This document shows positions 8,715-21,217 of a stretch of DNA of 64,000 bases, one piece after another. Position 1 is the stretch's first letter; each line of letters opens with the position of its first letter. Location: NCBI RefSeq assembly GCF_003544815.1, contig NZ_CP032100.1, positions 2,046,001-2,110,000 of the forward strand. Direction: 5' to 3'. This stretch comes from Arcobacter suis CECT 7833 (GTDB lineage Bacteria; Campylobacterota; Campylobacteria; Campylobacterales; Arcobacteraceae). Under the pieces are notes generated by a model. It did no database searches. It was not told the DNA's origin and saw only the letters and a list, made by a program, of their open reading frames with translations. Both the position numbers and the translations under genes were made by a program.

Positions 8715-8789
8715 TGGCTCCGGCACCAGGATTCGAACCTGGGACCAAATGATTAACAGTCATCTACTCTACCGCTGAGCTATGCCGGA
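8715..8789 (-). tRNA. tRNA-Asn (GTT), copy 3 of 3 in transcription order
   Basis: A 75-nt cloverleaf with acceptor TCCGGCA, anticodon GTT, discriminator G and encoded CCA. It is identical in the tRNA body to the two copies upstream. The three are spaced about 31 nt apart and presumably share one transcript. Confidence 0.97.
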
Positions 8790-8820
8790 ACTTGTAAGTT
8801 TGTTTTTTGAAATTTATAAA

Positions 8821-8895
8821 TGGCTCCGGCACCAGGATTCGAACCTGGGACCAAATGATTAACAGTCATCTACTCTACCGCTGAGCTATGCCGGA
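8821..8895 (-). tRNA. tRNA-Asn (GTT), copy 2 of 3
   Basis: Identical in the mature sequence to its two neighbours; 75 nt with anticodon GTT and encoded CCA. The spacers between copies differ, so the duplication is not of very recent whole-unit type. Confidence 0.97.
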
Positions 8896-8927
8896 ATCTA
8901 TAAATTTAAACATTAAAAAAGAAGTTA

Positions 8928-9002
8928 TGGCTCCGGCACCAGGATTCGAACCTGGGACCAAATGATTAACAGTCATCTACTCTACCGCTGAGCTATGCCG
9001 GA
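8928..9002 (-). tRNA. tRNA-Asn (GTT), copy 1 of 3
   Basis: First copy downstream of the consensus promoter at 9030-9058; 75 nt with anticodon GTT and encoded CCA. The promoter is about 20 nt from the mature 5' end, so the primary leader is short. Confidence 0.97.
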
Positions 9003-12702: not shown

Positions 12703-15300
12703 CTACTCATCCTCACCTTTTTCTAAATTATCTTCTTCACCATCTAATGTATCTAATAAAGTTGGTGTTTTATTTGATTCAGGGTCAATTGAAATTGATT
12801 CTAAAACTTCACCATCTTCTGTATATCTAATAATATTTCCATTTTCATCTAGTTCTATCTCTTCATCCTCTTTTGGACATTTTGCAATTGATACAACTTT
12901 ATCATTTTTATCTACATTTACAATAATTACACCGGCTGTATTTCTTCCAGCTTTTCTAATTGATTGCATATCAACTCTAATCATTTTTCCAATTGAAGTT
13001 AATAACATTAAATCTTGTGTATCATCTACTAATACTTCTCCTACAACATTTCCTGTTTTTGGAGATAGTTTCATAGATATAACTCCTGAACCTGCTCTAT
13101 TTGTAAGTCTATACTCTTCAACAGTTGTTCGTTTTCCTATCCCTTTTTCAGAAACAGTCAATAACTCTTGTTCTTCATTATTTACAACATCTGCATCTAC
13201 AACGAAGTCAATATCATGTTTAAACTTGATACCTCTAACTCCTCTTGTACTTCTTCCTTGGTCTCTTGTTTTTTCAATTTCGAATCTAATACATTGACCC
13301 ATGCTTGTAAAAATCATTAAATATTGAGTTTCAACATCTGCAATTTTTGCTGTTACTATTTCATCTAAATCATCTAAAACAATAGCTCTTACACCATTTG
13401 ATCTGATATTTGAGAATTCACTCAAAGATGTTCTTTTAATAATTCCGTTTCTTGTGAAGAATACTAAAGATTTAGATTCATCAAAATCTGGAGTTGGAAT
13501 AATTTCCATAATTTTCTCGTCAGGTCTTAAGTTGATTAAGTTAACAACTGCTTTACCTTTTGCAGTTCTACTACCTTCAGGAATTTTGTAAACTTTTAAC
13601 CAATATAATTGTCCCATATTTGTAACAAACATTAAAGTATCATGAGTATTACTTACAAAGAATTTCTCAATAAAGTCATCATCGTGAGTAGTCACGGCAA
13701 CTTTACCTTTTCCACCTCGTCTTTGTTTTTCATAAGATTTGATTGGAACTCTTTTTACATAACCATTATGAGTGATTGTAACAACCATTGGTTCATTTGG
13801 AATTAAATCTTCAATATCAATTTCATCGTAAGAATCTTCAATATCTGTTCTTCTATCACTTGAAAATCTTTCTTGAATATCAGTTAATTCTTCTTTAATG
13901 ATTTCATTTAATTTTTCTTCAGATTTTAGAATAGCTTCTAATTCAGCAATTAAAATCATTAATTCTTGATATTCAGCTTCTAATTTATCTCTTTGAAGAC
14001 CTGTTAATCTTCCAAGTCTCATATCTAAAATAGCTTGAGATTGAATTGGACTTAAACCAAATCTATTTTGTAAACTATCTTTTGCTTCCTGATCATTTGC
14101 ACTAGCTCTGATAATTTTTACAACTTCATCAATATTGTCTAAAGCAATTTTTAAACCTTCTAAAATATGCGCTCTTGCTTTTGCTTTTTCTAAATCGAAA
14201 ATTGTTCTTCTAATAATTACTGTTTTTCTATGTGATAAGAAAACAGTTAATAATTGAGGTAATGTAAATACTTTTGGTTCTTTATTGAAAACAGCTAAAA
14301 GAATAATTCCAAATGTAGTTTCCATTGGAGTTGATTTATATAAGTTATTTAAAACAATTTCGCTCATCGCATCTTTTTTAAGCTCAATTACAACTCTGAT
14401 TCCTTCTCTGTCAGATTCATCTCTAACTTCTGAAATTCCATCAATTTGTTTATCTTTTGCTAAGTTTGCAATAAGTTCAATTAATCTTGCTTTATTCACT
14501 TGATAAGGTAATTCATCAAGAACTATAATCTCTTTTTTACCTCTTGTTTCAATGTGATGTTTAGCTCTAATTCTTACTCTTCCTCGACCTGTATTATACG
14601 CATCAATGATTCCTCGTCTTCCAAAGATTGTTCCACCTGTTGGGAAATCTGGACCTTGAATAAACTGCATTAATTCATCAGCAGTTGCATCTGGATTATC
14701 TATTGTGTATAAAACAGCATTTAATAATTCATTAATATTATGTGGAGGAATTTTTGTAGCCATACCAACAGCAATTCCTTCACTTCCATTTAGAAGTAAA
14801 GTAGGAATTCTTGTAGGAAGAACTGATGGTTCTCTCATTGTATCATCATAGTTTGGTGTAAAATTTACTGTATCTTTATCCAAATCTCTTAATACTTCTT
14901 CAGCTATTTTAGTCATTCTAGCTTCTGTATATCTCATAGCAGCTGCACTATCACCATCAACCGAACCAAAGTTTCCTTGTCCATCAACTAAAGGAGCTCT
15001 CATAGAGAAGTTTTGAGCCATTCTAACTAATGCATCATAAACTGAAGTATCACCATGAGGATGGTATTTACCAATAACATCTCCAACAATTCTTGCAGAT
15101 TTTTTATACGCTGATTTTGAAGTAATATTCAAATCATGCATTGCGAATAAAATTCTTCTGTGTACTGGTTTTAAACCATCTTTTGCATCAGGTAATGCCC
15201 GACCTATAATAACACTCATAGAATAATCTAAATATGAAGCTTTTACTGAGTCTTCAATATTTATATCTATAATATCTTGATTTTCGAAAAGGTTTTCCAT
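12703..15300 (-). CDS. gyrA: DNA gyrase subunit A
   Basis: This is the breakage-reunion subunit of gyrase, which with GyrB introduces negative supercoils. The product has 865 residues. The catalytic tyrosine is Y124 in [10 protein letters not shown], and the GyrA box is the QRRGGKG motif in the middle of the protein. The quinolone-resistance region reads [12 protein letters not shown] with T85 and D89, the usual susceptible residues. The C-terminal beta-pinwheel ends in an acidic tail. A possible -10 (TATAAT) is at 15333-15338, and AAAGG lies nine bases before the ATG. The integrated element ends only about 100 bp upstream. Confidence 0.98.
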
Positions 15301-15398: not shown

Positions 15399-15414
15399 GG
15401 GACAAAAGCCTAAA
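15399..15414. repeat. left attachment site core of the integrated element
   Basis: The 16 bases GGGACAAAAGCCTAAA occur again at 20951-20966 in the same orientation, the integrase gene lying just inside the right copy. The repeat extends to 18 of 19 with one mismatch. The run of A before it (15391-15397) is the T tract of the original host terminator on the minus strand. Confidence 0.8.
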
Positions 15415-15505
15415 TTTATAAAATAAAAACTAAAAACATATAAAACACCTTATTTTCGTACTTCTAACAAAAATCATAAGAGATTATTTTGTAAAATCAA
15501 TCTCT

Positions 15506-15527
15506 TTTTGGAACAATTTTGGAACAA
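15506..15527. repeat. tandem 11-bp repeats at left end of the element
   Basis: TTTTGGAACAA occurs twice head to tail, 92 bp inside the left core. The same pattern, one unit degenerate, lies inside the right core. These are probable arm-type binding sites for the integrase. Confidence 0.6.
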
Positions 15528-15568
15528 TATAATTATATTTAAAAAGAATACAAAAATTAAATTTAAAG

Positions 15569-16234
15569 TTATTTTTCTGAATATAAATTATAATTGGAAG
15601 TTAATACATACGCTGTATTACTTTTAGCACATATACCTTTACTACCAATTATTTCCATGATTTTTTTTTCATCATCTGATAATTTTTCAAAATCTAAAGA
15701 ACCATTATTTTCAAGTATTCTGTAAAATAATTTTCTTTCATCTTCAGTTAATCTAATTATTTTTTTAAAATTTTGGATTTCATGTGTTTTATTGCTGATT
15801 TTATTACTCATTTCTTCAAATTGATTTTCATAATTTTTAAGAACATCTGCATAATCTTTAGAATTAACATAATCAATATCTAACGATTTTTTCACTCTTT
15901 TTGATAAGTAATACTGAAATTCTCTTATGTATGTTCCAACTACAAACAGCAATGAATAAATAATCATTGTTACAATAACTAATAAAATTGCATAAATATA
16001 CATTGGAAAGTAATCTAACCAATTAAAAATTCTATCAGCAGTTGAAACCTCACAGATTATTTCCTTTATCTGTTCAATTTTCAATTTTGAATCTAATTTA
16101 TCATCAAAAGAAATAAATATTACTGGCCAATAATAATAAAATAAAACAATTATAAATGTTAGTAAAAAAGGACTTGTTACTCTTTCATATAAATGCCCTT
16201 TGATGTTCAATATTGTATCTTTGATACTTTCCAC
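15569..16234 (-). CDS. two-helix membrane protein of unknown function, element cargo
   Basis: 221 residues from a GTG at 16234, with AAGGAA about eight bases upstream. Membrane helices lie at about 22-42 and 78-102, with the motif ERVTSPF just before the first. A helical, charged stretch (about 120-160) follows, then a C-terminal domain that starts LTEDERKLF and ends near SNYNLYSEK, reminiscent of a winged helix. This architecture (two N-terminal helices, cytoplasmic LTxxE domain) resembles SieB-type superinfection exclusion proteins, but I see no decisive motif. It is divergent from the 376-residue gene, which suggests a shared control region of 121 bp. Confidence 0.6.
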   Translation of the reverse strand: MESIKDTILNIKGHLYERVTSPFLLTFIIVLFYYYWPVIFISFDDKLDSKLKIEQIKEIICEVSTADRIFNWLDYFPMYIYAILLVIVTMIIYSLLFVVGTYIREFQYYLSKRVKKSLDIDYVNSKDYADVLKNYENQFEEMSNKISNKTHEIQNFKKIIRLTEDERKLFYRILENNGSLDFEKLSDDEKKIMEIIGSKGICAKSNTAYVLTSNYNLYSEK

Positions 16235-16355
16235 TTTTAGTTTCCTTGTATTATTTTTAATAGTTGTAAATTATATTTAAATAATTATAAAATCTATGTA
16301 TTAATATTTAATAAATTATTTTTTGTTACTATATTAAGAAAATTTAAGATTTTTC

Positions 16356-17486
16356 ATGAAAGTATTAACAGAAGAAATAGAGTATTTTATTGATAATAAC
16401 TTATTCTTTGAAAAAGTCTATATCCATTCTTGTCCTATTCATATATTACAATATATTAAATATTATAAAATAAAGAATAAACTTTCATTAAATGAATTAG
16501 TTGATAATACATTAAATAGATACATAGCCGATTTGAAAGAATTAAAAAGAGTCTATGAATTAGATGAAGATGTAAATTTTTTGTATAGTGAAAAAAGATA
16601 TAAAAACAATATTTCAAAAGAATTATTAGAAAAATTAAAATATAAATTTATGAATAGTAAATTATATTATTTAGATTGGATAGTATCAAGTATTAGAAAT
16701 CCATACCTAGAATATTTTTATTTATTTTTAAATTCAATAAATAATAGTTTATATATTAAAGAAAATCAATTTAATAATTCATCAACTCAATATAATTATG
16801 ATAATTTTGTTAATAAAACAAAAAGCATGAGAGAAAATGCAGAAAACTTTTTTGACGAAAATTTATTAATAGATTCAAAATTACATAAAGGTATTATTGA
16901 AACATACAAAGAAGATAAAATTGAAGGTTCTATGATTATATCTTCTATAACAAATAAAATATTCGCTAAATTAATACAAATTATGGATATTGAAGAAATA
17001 GATGAAAAAGATAAAATCATTTTAAATAGAAATCAACAATTTCATAAAAAATTTGAATATGTAAATTTCACTGAAAATGAAATGTATAATGGATTTGCTC
17101 AAGCTTGTTTTTATAATTATGCTCAAGCTAGGATTGAACAATTTAAAAGTTTAAGAAAAGAATATAATAAAAATAAAACAGCAACAATACCCAATTTTAC
17201 TAAAGATATTATTTCTAAAAAAATAATGGAATTATTTAATTTAGTGTTAGATGAAAAAGATGCAATTAAAAATATTCGCCAAAATAAAAAAACACCTAAT
17301 ATTCTAAAAATTTATGATGATATTAAAATTTATACTACAAAAGATTTATCAGAAATAGACAAAGGATTTTATAAATTTATCATTGAAAACTTTTTTGATG
17401 AAACTCCTAAAATGCAAAATTTCCTGAATGAGCATAAAGAAGAAATGCAAAACTTCACTTCTCAACTACGTATCATATTTTATTAA
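16356..17486 (+). CDS. unrecognised 376-residue protein, element cargo
   Basis: A complete ORF from ATG 16356 with only a weak ribosome site. The product is rich in Lys, Asn, Ile and Tyr, predicted almost all helical, with no signal peptide, membrane span or catalytic motif that I recognise. It begins MKVLTEEIEYFIDNN and ends SQLRIIFY. It is the largest cargo gene of the element and divergent from the membrane protein. A hairpin (17494-17531) follows eight bases after its stop. Being cargo on a small phage-like element, an interference or toxin role is possible but unproven. Confidence 0.6.
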   Translation: MKVLTEEIEYFIDNNLFFEKVYIHSCPIHILQYIKYYKIKNKLSLNELVDNTLNRYIADLKELKRVYELDEDVNFLYSEKRYKNNISKELLEKLKYKFMNSKLYYLDWIVSSIRNPYLEYFYLFLNSINNSLYIKENQFNNSSTQYNYDNFVNKTKSMRENAENFFDENLLIDSKLHKGIIETYKEDKIEGSMIISSITNKIFAKLIQIMDIEEIDEKDKIILNRNQQFHKKFEYVNFTENEMYNGFAQACFYNYAQARIEQFKSLRKEYNKNKTATIPNFTKDIISKKIMELFNLVLDEKDAIKNIRQNKKTPNILKIYDDIKIYTTKDLSEIDKGFYKFIIENFFDETPKMQNFLNEHKEEMQNFTSQLRIIFY

Positions 17487-17493
17487 ATATTCT

Positions 17494-17531
17494 CTGCAAA
17501 TAACAACTCAAAAACAAGTCAATATTTGCAG
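17494..17531. repeat. stem-loop after the 376-residue gene
   Basis: CTGCAAATA (17494-17502) pairs with TATTTGCAG (17523-17531) across a 20-nt loop. The plus strand continues with a run of A rather than T, so it is not a classic terminator for the gene before it. It could be a replication hairpin of the element. Confidence 0.5.
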
Positions 17532-17670
17532 AAAAAAACTTTTTATTTCAATTAAACTTCCAACAGATTAATCAAAACAAAGTCATATAAATTTATATAA
17601 CAGTAAAGACGTTTACTAAACTTTCTATTTTAATAATTATAAAAATAGATAAATCCATAAAGGATAAAAA

Positions 17671-17931
17671 ATGATTACTTTAAAAGGTTTACTTTTAAAT
17701 ATTATTCCAGCTACAACTTACAAAAAACAAGGAGAAACTTTAGCTACTCCTGTAAAAGCTAAATTACAAATTTTAGTAGAAAGTAAAAGAGCAAATGGAA
17801 CATTAGTTAAAGATTTACAAACTATTTCCATTCCAGATGAAAAAATCAATCTTTATACAGACAAGATTTCAAAAGAGGTTTCTGTAGAAGTAGGAATCAT
17901 TTCAAAACAATTTAGTTTCTATGGTGTCTAA
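17671..17931 (+). CDS. probable small ssDNA-binding protein of the element
   Basis: 86 residues, from an ATG preceded by AAAGGA. It is predicted mostly beta, with alternating hydrophobic strands (VKAKLQILVES, VSVEVGIISKQFSFYG). Size, fold type and place directly before the Rep gene fit the helix-destabilising proteins (gene V type) that filamentous phages use to coat single-stranded DNA. No sequence motif proves this. A strong hairpin terminator follows immediately, so its transcript probably ends before rep. Confidence 0.5.
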   Translation: MITLKGLLLNIIPATTYKKQGETLATPVKAKLQILVESKRANGTLVKDLQTISIPDEKINLYTDKISKEVSVEVGIISKQFSFYGV

Positions 17932-17944
17932 GAGAAAAGAAAAG

Positions 17945-17977
17945 TTTTCAGAGGCAACTCTGAAAATGTTCTTTTTT
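17945..17977 (+). terminator. Rho-independent terminator after the small binding protein
   Basis: A perfect 9-bp stem TTTTCAGAG / CTCTGAAAA with a GCAA tetraloop (GNRA class), followed by TGTTCTTTTTT. It would end the transcript of the 86-residue gene and reduce readthrough into rep, as in filamentous phages, where binding protein and Rep are made at different levels. Confidence 0.8.
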
Positions 17978-17990
17978 CGTGACAAGATTT

Positions 17991-18012
17991 CGGGGTATAT
18001 AGTAATACCCCG
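17991..18012. repeat. GC-rich hairpin before rep, candidate replication origin
   Basis: CGGGGTAT and ATACCCCG form an 8-bp stem with loop ATAGTA, 26 bp before the rep ATG. It stands out in the AT-rich element. Hairpins with an exposed nick site next to the initiator gene are typical rolling-circle double-strand origins; an operator or attenuator is the alternative. Confidence 0.45.
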
Positions 18013-18038
18013 TACTAAAACACTCAAAAGGAGAAAAG

Positions 18039-19385
18039 ATGAGTGAAATAAAAAAAGTATTTGGTATTGATTCACTTTATTTCTTCTTTGAAACCAATGA
18101 AAACTATGATGATTTATTTTTAGAAATATTAGACCAATTAGAAGAGTTAAAAGGTAAGTTTGAAAAGAGAGATATTGAGTTTGAGAACAAAGATTTAACA
18201 ATTTCAATAAATGATATTCAATTATCTTATCTTGGAAAACAAGAGGGCTTTTATTGGTTTAAAGATTCAAATGAATTTTTTAGAATTGGATTTAAAGATA
18301 AATATAAAAACAGAGGATTAAATGATATTAGAGTACAGCTTCAAGGAAATGGTATTTATACTTTTGGTATTAGTTCTATTATTGAATTACTCAAAGACTC
18401 TCTAAAAGAAGTTATAAGTGATTATATACCAATAACAAGAGCAGATTTAAACTGCTTTATACAATATGATTTTTCATTTGTTAAAAAAGATATGTTTAGC
18501 ACTAGAAAAAGACAATATTCAACTATTAATGAAATTGGTAATGCAAATACAACACAAACTTTATATGTTGGAAAAGAGCCTTTTAAATTAAGACTTTATA
18601 ATAAATCACTAGAACTAAAAAAATCTAAAAAGTTTGAAATTATGAATGAATACTTTTTAAATAATGACTTTGATTTAGAACAAACAATTTTTAATATTGA
18701 GTTTCAAATGAATAGAGGTCATTTAAAACAATACAACATAAATACAATAGATGATTTATTATGTAATGCTAAAAATCTTTTTCAAAGTGCTATGGATGAT
18801 ATTAGATTACTAGATATTGATTCAGTATCAAATGAAAGATTGATAAATAATAAATATCAAGCAGATACTCATCCTCTATGGGAAGAGATAAAAAGTGAAT
18901 ATGATTTAAAAGATTTTTTGCAAATTGATTTTCCATTGGAAAGATTAAAAAGAAAAATATCCGTTTATGATGAAAATAAATTTGAATATGAATATATATC
19001 ACTAATTAGAAAAGCATATATAAATAATCTAACTTTGGATATTGATTTTTTAAATGAACTATATTTTAAAGCAAAAGAATCTTTGAAAAAAACAACTACT
19101 CAAAAAGAGCTAAAAAAAGATTATATTGAAGTTGATGTTATCAACCAAAATACAAATAAAAAAGAGAATTTTAGATTACTAAATAATGGAGAGTTAATTA
19201 AACCTCTTAGAACTGAAACAGTTGCTAATTTATCTGATTATGAATTATTGGTTTATCTTGATAAAACTTCTGAGAAACAACATCTTACAGCAAGAGATAA
19301 TCAAATTTATACTGTGGCTTATAAAGAAGCTAAAAAGAGGAATTTACTGCTTGATATTAGTTCTAGTGAAGCGATAGAGTTTTAA
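18039..19385 (+). CDS. replication initiation factor, Rep_trans-like
   Basis: 448 residues from an ATG with a strong AAAGGAG. ITRADLN (132-138) and TLYVGK (174-179) followed by LRLYNKS (184-190) match the conserved blocks of the Rep_trans replication initiation factors found in filamentous phages and some rolling-circle plasmids. Such proteins nick one strand at the origin through a tyrosine. The C-terminal 150 residues are lysine-rich and helical. Upstream are a hairpin (17991-18012) and the small binding-protein gene; downstream are xis-like and int genes on the same strand. Family assignment is from motif memory, so moderately sure. Confidence 0.7.
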   Translation: MSEIKKVFGIDSLYFFFETNENYDDLFLEILDQLEELKGKFEKRDIEFENKDLTISINDIQLSYLGKQEGFYWFKDSNEFFRIGFKDKYKNRGLNDIRVQLQGNGIYTFGISSIIELLKDSLKEVISDYIPITRADLNCFIQYDFSFVKKDMFSTRKRQYSTINEIGNANTTQTLYVGKEPFKLRLYNKSLELKKSKKFEIMNEYFLNNDFDLEQTIFNIEFQMNRGHLKQYNINTIDDLLCNAKNLFQSAMDDIRLLDIDSVSNERLINNKYQADTHPLWEEIKSEYDLKDFLQIDFPLERLKRKISVYDENKFEYEYISLIRKAYINNLTLDIDFLNELYFKAKESLKKTTTQKELKKDYIEVDVINQNTNKKENFRLLNNGELIKPLRTETVANLSDYELLVYLDKTSEKQHLTARDNQIYTVAYKEAKKRNLLLDISSSEAIEF

Positions 19386-19428
19386 GGGAGTTATATCTTA
19401 AACAGATTATGAAAGGAGAATATAAACA

Positions 19429-19734
19429 ATGGATATATCATTTGAGAATTTAAAAAAGATAGACACCATATTGGAAAAATTGGAAAGTTTAGAAAATAAA
19501 ATTTCTAGTGAAAAAAGGTGGCTAAATATAAAAGAAGCTTCAATTTATATTGGTTATTCAAAAGACCATATACACAAACTAAAAGATAGCCATTTAATAG
19601 AGGGAAAACACTATTTTAAAAAAGCAGGTAGGATTTTATTTGATAAAATTGAGCTTGATAATTGGGTTAAATACTCTTTAAATCAATTAAATCCAAAACA
19701 AATAGCAGAAAGTATTTTAAAAGATTTAATATGA
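19429..19734 (+). CDS. excisionase-like helix-turn-helix protein
   Basis: 101 residues, ATG 19429 behind AAAGGAG. An N-terminal coiled-coil-like stretch (about 5-30) is followed by a MerR-type winged helix (LNIKEASIYIGYSKDHIHKL, 37-56) and a lysine-rich strand ending in FDKIELDNWV, the pattern of excisionase-family (HTH_17) DNA-binding proteins. Placed between rep and the integrase, it probably directs excision or represses the element's promoters. Confidence 0.7.
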   Translation: MDISFENLKKIDTILEKLESLENKISSEKRWLNIKEASIYIGYSKDHIHKLKDSHLIEGKHYFKKAGRILFDKIELDNWVKYSLNQLNPKQIAESILKDLI

Positions 19735-19798
19735 ATTGTAATAAAATAAAATCTGTTAAAAGTATTAGAATCAAGGTGTTTTTCAAAGGAGAAACACA

Positions 19799-20872
19799 AT
19801 GGTTAAAATGACAGAACCTAAACTATTTACTCGAGGTGCAAAACTTTGGGTAAGGTTTAGTTTAAATGGTGAAGTGATTAAAAAGTCACTTAATATAGAA
19901 GATTCAAAAGCTAATAGAAAATTAGCAACAACGCAAATAATTCCACAAATGCTTTTAAAAGTGCATAGTGGAGAGTTCTTTGAAAATAAAATTGTTCCAA
20001 CTGTACAAGAAATGATTGATATTAGTTTGAAGATGAATAAAGCTAGTAGAAAAGCAAATACACATGGTATATATCAGTACATTTTGAATAAGCATATTAT
20101 TCCAATATTTGGAAAAAGAAAAATAGATACGATAAAAGCTTCGGAACTTACTTTATGGCAAAATAATTTACTTGATATTCTTTCTAATAAATCCGTTTTA
20201 AATATAAGAATAGTTTTTTATGGCATATTTGAAGATGCATTTAGAGATGAGATTATCCAAAAGAATCCATTTTCAATAATAAAAGCTCCTCAAAATATAG
20301 CAAAAAATGAGAATATTCCTTTCTCAAAAGATGAGATATTTCAAATCCTTGAAGCTAGTCCTTTAAAAATCAGAGCATTTTTTGCCATAGGTTTTTTTAC
20401 TGGCATGAGAACTGGAGAAATTATAGCTTTAAAATGGTCTGATATTGATTTTACAAATAGAATTATAAAAGTAACTAAAACTAGAAATAAAGGAATTGAA
20501 ACAACGCCTAAAACAAAATCAAGTATTAGAGATGTTGAAATACTTGATGTACTTTTACCATATTTGGAGAATCATTTACAATTTAAAACAGATAGTGAAT
20601 ATATCTTTTTAACTAGAGGTAATATTCCATTTAATTCATCAAAAAAAATATCTACTCTTTATTGGTCAAAAGTTTTAAAAGAGCAAAATATAGCTTATAG
20701 AAATCTATATCAAATGAGACACACTTTTGCATCAATGATGATAGCAAGTGGAGAAGATATTTTATGGGTTGCAAATATGTTAGGACACAAAAATTCTAAT
20801 ATAACACTTTCAACTTATGCAAAATATATAAAAAATGATAAAAAGATAAGAGGAAAGTTTTTATTAGATTAG
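19799..20872 (+). CDS. tyrosine recombinase/integrase of the element
   Basis: 357 residues, ATG 19799 with AAAGGAG. It has an N-terminal arm-binding region, a SAM-like core-binding domain (about 68-160) and a catalytic domain. Catalytic residues visible are R204 in TGMRTGEI, R307-H308 in QMRHTFAS (the usual first His of HxxR is Tyr), the His of LGHKN and the nucleophile Y340 in LSTYAKY. It recombines the 16-bp cores and catalyses integration and, with the xis-like protein, excision. The gene ends 78 bp before the right core, the usual arrangement. Confidence 0.93.
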   Translation: MVKMTEPKLFTRGAKLWVRFSLNGEVIKKSLNIEDSKANRKLATTQIIPQMLLKVHSGEFFENKIVPTVQEMIDISLKMNKASRKANTHGIYQYILNKHIIPIFGKRKIDTIKASELTLWQNNLLDILSNKSVLNIRIVFYGIFEDAFRDEIIQKNPFSIIKAPQNIAKNENIPFSKDEIFQILEASPLKIRAFFAIGFFTGMRTGEIIALKWSDIDFTNRIIKVTKTRNKGIETTPKTKSSIRDVEILDVLLPYLENHLQFKTDSEYIFLTRGNIPFNSSKKISTLYWSKVLKEQNIAYRNLYQMRHTFASMMIASGEDILWVANMLGHKNSNITLSTYAKYIKNDKKIRGKFLLD

Positions 20873-20878
20873 AACATC

Positions 20879-20899
20879 TTTGGCACAGTTTTGGAACAA
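20879..20899. repeat. tandem repeats at right end of the element
   Basis: TTTTGGAACAA (20889-20899) is preceded directly by a degenerate copy, TTTGGCACAG. It is the counterpart of 15506-15527, in the same orientation, 52 bp from the right core. Probable integrase arm sites. Confidence 0.6.
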
Positions 20900-20944
20900 T
20901 TAGGATTTAAAACTTCTGGAAAAGCCTATAAATAGCTTATTAAT

Positions 20945-20978
20945 AAAAAAGGGACAAAAGCCTAAACTTTCATCCCCT
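20945..20978 (-). terminator. Rho-independent terminator of the ydcH-like gene, rebuilt by the element
   Basis: On the minus strand the arm AGGGGATGAAAG (20967-20978), a TTTAGG loop and CTTTTGTCCC then six T form an intrinsic terminator with two G-U pairs. The loop and right arm are the att core, and the T tract on this side comes from the element, so integration preserves termination. Confidence 0.75.
20951..20966. repeat. right attachment site core of the element
   Basis: Second copy of GGGACAAAAGCCTAAA, 5552 bp from the left copy. The host side to the right continues with the left arm of the terminator of the ydcH-like gene, which shows that this end borders original chromosome. Confidence 0.8.
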
Positions 20979-21001: not shown

Positions 21002-21217
21002 TTATTTTTCGCTTTTGTATTTAACAATTGCTGAATAAATTTCATCTTTTAATTTTAATTTTTCTTTTTTCTTAGCTTCAATTTCAAATTGGTCAGCATG
21101 TGATTCTTCAAGTTTTACGATAATATCATCTAACTCATTATGTTTTTCAAAAAGTTTGTGAAAGTGTCCATCTTTTTGTTTTAATTCTGTAATTACATCT
21201 CTGTATTCGTGAAACAT
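21002..21217 (-). CDS. YdcH-like (DUF465) protein
   Basis: 71 residues, MFHEYRDVITELKQKDGHFHKLFEKHNELD, matching the YdcH pattern (FPEYRDLISRL...FDKHNKLD). It is a helical hairpin with charged coiled-coil character and a KLKLKDEIYSAI C-terminus like the family. Function unknown. It is monocistronic or the last gene behind argJ's neighbour; its terminator is the integration target of the element. Confidence 0.88.
   Translation of the reverse strand: MFHEYRDVITELKQKDGHFHKLFEKHNELDDIIVKLEESHADQFEIEAKKKEKLKLKDEIYSAIVKYKSEK

Follow-up and report, generated by a model that had tools for sequence, protein, structure and literature searches.

ICEBs1, Tn916, ICESt3 and the integrative and mobilizable elements (IMEs) of streptococci combine a tyrosine integrase with a Rep_trans-type nickase, an OB-fold (oligonucleotide/oligosaccharide-binding) partner protein and a nic hairpin that is nicked in its loop. 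PICMIs and other minimal phage satellites carry only integration, excision and replication genes together with defence cargo, and have no capsid genes. Filamentous phages (Tubulavirales, such as the Paulinoviridae phage Zuza8) and their satellites encode a Rep and a small protein like those that bind single-stranded DNA (ssDNA), and pT181-type rolling-circle plasmids share a catalytic residue pattern and a nick-site stem-loop. Here we describe an element of ∼5.6 kb (15399-20966) in a 64,000-nucleotide stretch of Arcobacter suis CECT 7833 (contig NZ_CP032100.1, positions 2,046,001 to 2,110,000; hereafter the window) that resembles each of these in part. It lies between gyrA and a DUF465 gene and holds six genes, for proteins of 221 aa (minus strand), 376 aa and 86 aa, the replication initiator Rep (448 aa), an excisionase-like helix-turn-helix (HTH) protein and a tyrosine integrase. 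We read it, with a probability of roughly 75%, as an integrative, rolling-circle-replicating mobile element that depends on a helper (a ‘hitcher’), being either a phage satellite or a mobilizable element.

The differences from the described systems are as marked as the likenesses. Compared with ICEBs1, Tn916, ICESt3 and the streptococcal IMEs, this family belongs to another phylum, its Rep is much diverged with no N-terminal HTH recognised, its hairpin loop mostly reads GTAA instead of CT'AA, it has no coupling protein and it carries defence cargo. Compared with PICMIs, a rolling-circle Rep stands in for their replication gene, integration is into a terminator or a tRNA gene, and no helper was found. 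The Rep is only distantly related to that of filamentous phages, and the element differs from these in having no coat, adsorption or assembly gene while having a tyrosine integrase and an excisionase-like gene; it differs from pT181-type plasmids in being integrated and larger, with an integrase and cargo. The features of the locus are as follows.

12703-15300, minus strand: gyrA, left chromosomal neighbour of the element
15399-15414: attL core copy (16 bp), without the terminator hairpin
15506-15528: left arm-type repeat, TTTGGAACA repeated; likely an integrase arm site
15569-16234, minus strand: 221-aa protein (GTG start as listed); cargo, no trusted family match
16356-17486, plus strand: 376-aa gene, occupying the hypervariable position before the OB-fold gene
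17575-19358: block of 1,784 bp identical to L014, a second element in the same genome
17671-17931, plus strand: 86-aa protein, predicted OB fold, SSB/PriB-like
17944-17967, both strands: terminator-like hairpin between the OB-fold gene and rep
17991-18012, plus strand: putative double-strand origin (nic hairpin), TAGTAA in the loop
18039-19385, plus strand: Rep, divergent Rep_trans-type nickase, predicted nucleophile Tyr187
19429-19734, plus strand: HTH protein, excisionase-like
19799-20872, plus strand: tyrosine integrase, beside the right repeat
20879-20901: right arm-type repeat
20949-20978, minus strand: terminator hairpin of the DUF465 gene, whole after insertion
20951-20966: attR copy of the 16-bp core; the terminator hairpin is whole here
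21002-21217, minus strand: DUF465 gene, right chromosomal neighbour of the element

Integration at a terminator

The element is integrated at the terminator of the DUF465 gene. A reading of this DNA made from the letters alone (the sequence-only reading) had pointed to 16-bp direct repeats and to an integrase next to the right one. Both observations hold: the core GGGACAAAAGCCTAAA is identical at the two ends over all 16 bp, and the protein beside attR matches Phage_integrase (Pfam, E 9.4e-25) and a PHROG integrase family (1.1e-62). The length of the repeat is, by itself, weak proof. For the window, shuffles of the left side (first-order Markov, 20 tries) gave repeats of up to 15 nt, and 7 of 740 such shuffles over 37 loci gave repeats of at least 16 nt. 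What settles the insertion is that relatives have the empty site. Our genus set comprised 31 genomes; 29 of the 30 others gave the gyrA–DUF465 locus (G016 did not), and the gap between the two genes is 131–157 bp in all 29. An exact single core is present at five of these sites, 11 more agree with it at 11–15 of 16 positions, and the remaining 13 agree at 8–9 of 16, which is no better than noise. The empty attB that the sequence-only reading had proposed to look for is thus found in relatives. Neither of the two outcomes that this reading had named as refuting it came up.

The position of the core identifies the target. On the minus strand, 20949-20978 forms a terminator-like hairpin of 13 pairs followed by a T tract, and the core covers its loop and one arm. 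The hairpin is intact at attR and gone at attL. These data indicate that the integration is real and that the integrase targets the terminator, as had been suggested. Just inside the ends, the left arm-type repeat matches the right end exactly over 13 nt, and similar repeats occur just inside both ends of several relatives. The HTH protein matches PHROG excisionase families (1.3e-5 and 4.7e-4; HTH_17 falls under its cut-off). At the level of genes and sites, the locus therefore has the integration and excision module by which an IME is recognised, namely integrase, excisionase-like HTH protein, att repeats and empty sites.

Three tRNA-Asn genes near gyrA (window 8715-9002) are unoccupied. In L015 and L017, two of the loci compared below, an element of the family sits at tRNA-Asn genes of what seems to be the same neighbourhood. 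Two insertion sites (gyrA–DUF465 and tRNA-Asn) thus lie within ∼12 kb.

Rep, hairpin and OB-fold protein

The Rep of the element likely starts rolling-circle replication, as predicted from its motifs, the hairpin upstream and the OB fold of its neighbour. According to Carr et al. (PMC4797284), the active site of staphylococcal Rep_trans proteins consists of T176, Y178, G180, R189, Y191 (the nucleophile), K193 and E196. The window Rep has counterparts of all seven in the same order (T174, Y176, G178, R185, Y187, K189 and E192), with a G-to-R loop two residues shorter than in the staphylococcal Rep described there. Across 44 family sequences of at least 400 aa, 12 of the positions followed are invariant in 44/44 (R134, D136, N138, G178, R185, Y187, K189, E192, N219, E221, F222 and R226). 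These include the G, R, Y, K and E of the published site (5/7), whereas its T and first Y are kept in <90%. When the Rep profile was compared with eight phage and plasmid Rep_trans proteins, the score was 29.2, against a maximum of 24.5 for 60 column shuffles and 18.4 for the reversed profile. Residues and score agree with the Rep_trans-like blocks that had been seen in the sequence-only reading.

The hairpin between the OB-fold gene and rep was seen in 34 of 36 loci, with 28 distinct sequences. Its stem covaries: 198 of 224 cells are Watson–Crick, compared to a mean of 154.5 and a maximum of 169 in 1,000 shuffles. TAA is kept in the loop, preceded by G in 27 of the 28 distinct hairpins (GTAA) and by A in one (ATAA). 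As given in PMC9371924, the MOBT/Rep_trans nick site is CT'AA in the loop of a GC-rich hairpin; the GC-rich, covarying hairpin is present here, but the C of that motif is not kept in the loop. Taken together, the catalytic residues and the covarying hairpin mean that rolling-circle initiation is well supported.

For the 86-aa protein, the AlphaFold2 model (mean predicted local distance difference test score, pLDDT, 78) has the strand order b-b-b-a-b-b, which corresponds to a predicted five-strand OB barrel. Searches of the PDB with this model gave SSB and PriB matches (E 2.6e-3 with probability 1.00 for the best Foldseek match, and Z of at most 8.9 in VIA-align), the top listed structures being SSB, PriB and RuvA. 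We predict that it is an SSB/PriB-like OB-fold protein and a candidate ssDNA-binding protein, comparable to the OB-fold partners of MOBT relaxases (PMC12614216). A tiny, beta-rich, ssDNA-binding-like protein before Rep had been noted earlier, with a profile search against gene V proteins proposed for it. The fold prediction fits that description; gene V protein families gave no match in Pfam, PHROGs or NCBIfam. Nor was a homologue of this protein found in IMG/VR.

The origin of the Rep may lie in the filamentous phages, judging by a chain of profile comparisons. The Reps of L119 and L120, two other Campylobacterales elements, are related to the focal Rep (hhalign probability 97.8). Thermus phage Zuza8, classed as filamentous (family Paulinoviridae), has an endonuclease to which the L120 Rep is 32% identical over 99 aa (E 6e-5). 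When the Zuza8 sequence is added to the L119/L120 profile, the link to the focal Rep family is still 98.0; against Zuza8 alone, the focal profile gives a weak result (probability 11). No Rep homologue was found in 50,697 phage records or in plasmid records (tblastn), nor in two IMG/VR scans.

L119 (6780-16297) and L120 (6452-17470) are elements of ∼10 kb with a small protein before Rep and many unknown genes, and are possibly small phages. An IS110-type transposase and an M15 peptidase are present in L119 (by Pfam; the same layout is described for L120), and L119 also contains the beginning of a second tandem copy.

A family in the Campylobacterales

The Rep occurs at a second place in this genome and in 6 of the 31 genus genomes. 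The family extends to several groups within the order. Its profile matches 46 of 398 Campylobacterales genomes, 36 of them strongly (E ≤ 1e-60) and 10 only distantly. In a phylum sample of 130 genomes, six had a match, all from the same order. We compared 51 loci, window included, and found a constant layout: cargo on the left, a gene of ∼290–415 aa, the OB-fold gene, rep, often an excisionase-like gene, and int at the right att. Direct repeats, judged by eye, bound 30 of 37 testable loci including the window; none rose above noise in L006, L016, L083, L084, L103, L116 and L117, the 21-nt repeat of L015 was equalled by one shuffle, and the ends of L096 and L104 are less certain. In 24 of the 29 repeat-bounded loci other than the window, the core lies on the end of a tRNA gene. 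Elements range from 3,758 bp, without cargo, to 11,066 bp. In L005 and L020, an integrase of this type is missing beside rep. L005 (2819-9347) has the Rep and OB-fold genes with a different integrase at its far left end, which indicates that the integration module gets exchanged. Two genus copies, decayed relatives, have an internal stop in Rep. We did not find a description of this family in open-access full text, a coverage that excludes subscription papers and preprints.

Cargo and a hypervariable position

By sequence comparison, the left arm appears to be a cargo bay, and in relatives defence genes are often found there. We took one main open reading frame (ORF) per locus, hand-chosen from 20 loci with smaller ORFs excluded, and 14 of these 20 proteins match PADLOC (E ≤ 1e-5). 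The matches include TIR-NLR proteins, retron/DRT-type reverse transcriptases, PtuA-like ATPases, NsnA/GmrSD-like proteins and SEFIR/TIR. Pfam adds NB-ARC, NACHT, GmrSD, TIR, RT, Schlafen-type helicases, patatin, HEPN and HD-CE, as well as HaeII together with a cytosine methylase. L095 (2455-4880) carries a HaeII-type restriction enzyme alongside a cytosine methylase and, judged by eye, a Vsr-like protein. L014, the sister element, measures 7.9 kb and sits at a tRNA-Leu gene; it carries a 931-aa NB-ARC/TPR protein without a PADLOC match.

In the focal element, neither the 221-aa nor the 376-aa protein has a trusted family match. The 221-aa protein has N-terminal hydrophobic stretches (by eye), a coiled-coil-like part and a tail, whose counterpart in one relative has a weak winged-helix match (HTH_27, below cut-off). 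Weak relatives are present in 4 other genomes of the 398 scanned. Longer relatives in L124 (1072-1962) and L125 (1135-2001) stand alone between chromosomal genes and retain the N-terminal motif; the one in L124 has a winged-helix-like C-terminus. Both proteins had been taken as unknown cargo. For the 221-aa protein we keep this assignment; the 376-aa gene sits at a fixed, fast-changing position.

That this position is a fixed place with fast-changing content is apparent from sequence comparisons among the loci. L006 has a homologue of the 376-aa gene, 70% identical, in the corresponding place. In 33 of the 51 loci the gene upstream of the OB-fold gene belongs to one of six blast-linked groups, into which 33 of 37 candidate genes sort. 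Of 17 element pairs that have similar Reps and in which both members carry the gene, 12 show no detectable similarity between the two genes, four show 25–27% identity and one shows 64%. The window element and L014 are identical over 1,784 bp, a block that starts ahead of the OB-fold gene and stops shortly before rep ends; the genes upstream of the OB-fold gene are unrelated and the integrases are 49% identical. The replication block has thus been recently exchanged between elements of this genome. L015 and L017 have integrases that are 99% identical and unrelated hypervariable genes. Other groups at the position are partly interlinked (profile probability up to 98.9). For the 376-aa protein there is no profile link to them (probability ≤1.2), and hence we claim no homology. 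Searches of phage records with the 376-aa gene and with the hypervariable genes of L092 and L108 gave no homologue.

Gene turnover next to a replication block that stays constant suggests either a role in specificity or a second cargo slot. Co-resident elements that both have the gene differ there in 3 of 3 cases (G000, G281 and G276), although by rough arithmetic on group sizes such a difference in three pairs is expected by chance about half the time. That co-resident elements must differ at this position is offered as a hypothesis only.

How the element may move between cells

The genes suggest the following cycle. The integrase would act on the 16-bp core within the terminator that follows the DUF465 gene; together with the excisionase-like protein it would free a circle. 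Rep would nick the loop of the 17991-18012 hairpin via Tyr187, as its motifs and the hairpin imply, and so set off rolling-circle replication, in which the OB-fold protein would coat or otherwise handle the strand that is displaced. The products, whether replicated circles, ssDNA or concatemers, would next pass to a helper. A phage is the most likely one, as for minimal satellites such as PICMIs; the alternative is a conjugative system. The 221-aa protein, and perhaps also that of 376 aa, may be anti-phage-type cargo, and the hypervariable position might, more speculatively, set immunity or helper specificity.

Several points weigh against this interpretation. It is built from sequence and models, and circle, ssDNA and transfer are predictions. 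The hhalign probability for Rep versus Rep_trans is only 4.2%, and the focal Rep has no match in Pfam, PHROGs or NCBIfam. One Rep relative reaches 20.3 bits with Rep_trans (PF02486), where the gathering cut-off is 29.6; we therefore call the Rep Rep_trans-like, not a Pfam member. An AlphaFold2 model of Rep from five sequences failed (pLDDT 38.8), and the Rep profile, run against PDB sequences, returned a single irrelevant match (E 0.58). The focal cargo has no defence match, and a soft control of 52 flanking genes matched 138 PADLOC families, mostly by single matches, with at least five control members matching viperin-like models. We accordingly claim richness in defence genes and no tested enrichment. 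Finally, co-occurrence of Zot and VirB4 across the 398 genomes yielded no helper for the element.

In that analysis, many weak Zot matches fell in frames of ∼800 aa, presumably FtsK-type, and for this reason Zot was counted as strong only at E ≤ 3e-8. Strong Zot matches were found in 2/36 strong carriers and 52/362 other genomes (P = 0.20), and VirB4 matches in 0/36 and 40/362 (P = 0.037); over all 46 Rep genomes the counts are 3/46 and 1/46. A resident Zot phage or VirB4 system as helper is not supported, as neither is enriched in carriers. One caveat here is that co-occurrence often misses helpers, according to PMC11389934.

We rank the possible routes as follows: satellite of a tailed phage, mobilizable element, satellite of a filamentous phage and, last, immobile remnant. 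The first, in which a tailed and perhaps virulent phage packages rolling-circle concatemers as with PICMIs, is the leading candidate, held tentatively. PICMIs are described in PMC10803314 as needing no more than genes for excision and replication besides their defence cargo, and as travelling as concatemers in virulent phage particles. Likewise, a jumbo phage carries tmRNA-targeting tyrosine-integrase islands with defence genes and without transfer genes (PMC12595487). These precedents show that a satellite can get by with an integrase and with genes for replication and defence. On the other side, we found no shared packaging site or helper, and the phage records and IMG/VR scans searched above lack a Rep homologue.

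Somewhat more doubtful is an IME in which Rep acts chiefly as a MOBT-like relaxase and the hairpin as oriT, with exit through the conjugative pore of another element. Rep_trans/MOBT enzymes do have a double role in replication and transfer, and streptococci often carry IMEs with such an enzyme (PMC5704250). In ICESt3, Tn916 and ICEBs1, such a relaxase is paired with OB-fold proteins (PMC12614216) and the nic site lies in a GC-rich hairpin loop (PMC9371924). VirB4 is absent from all 36 strong carriers, which counts against this route; the search covered VirB4 alone, not other types of pore or the coupling proteins of the Gram-positive type, and co-occurrence is a poor test according to PMC11389934. 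None of the six focal genes was recognised as a conjugation gene.

We consider it unlikely that the element is a satellite of a filamentous phage, with its rolling-circle ssDNA packaged by the coat and assembly proteins of the helper. RS1 is packaged in this way, as ssDNA, by the proteins of its filamentous helper, and the sequence-only reading had named filamentous phages and their satellites as the closest known type. It had also stated that coat, minor coat and Zot-like genes are missing; indeed, none of the six element proteins matches a coat, minor coat or Zot-type family (Pfam, PHROGs, NCBIfam, E ≤ 1), so that no coat or Zot-type assembly gene of the Tubulavirales kind was recognised. 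What speaks for the type is the Rep link to Zuza8 through L119/L120, and the order of OB-fold protein and Rep resembles gene V and gene II, in position only. Against it, strong Zot matches are not enriched in carriers, and this genome has no strong match, just one of 5.9e-5 in a 799-aa frame. In addition, the direct profile match to Zuza8 is weak, and a scan found no hairpin near rep of L119/L120.

An element that no longer transfers, either as an immobile remnant or as an integrative plasmid passed on vertically, would agree with the internal stops in Rep of the two decayed relatives, and is improbable given that the focal genes are all open, that two elements share an identical 1,784-bp block and that the spread is patchy (6/31 genus genomes).

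A helper-dependent mobile element thus remains our preferred interpretation. A bolder version would see Campylobacterales-wide minimal phage satellites with a rolling-circle Rep of filamentous lineage, traded anti-phage cargo bays and a hypervariable switch for immunity or helper specificity that lets elements with the same module coexist in one cell; we regard this as conjectural and rather doubtful.

Significance

Small elements without capsid or conjugation genes hold much of the bacterial anti-phage arsenal, and few such families are known outside Vibrio, enterics and Firmicutes. With the family described here, the Campylobacterales gain a defined one, for which the ends are mapped, an origin and a catalytic residue are predicted, and the cargo site recurs. 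Its cargo bay and hypervariable position hold many proteins that match no family, and are a place to seek new defence systems.

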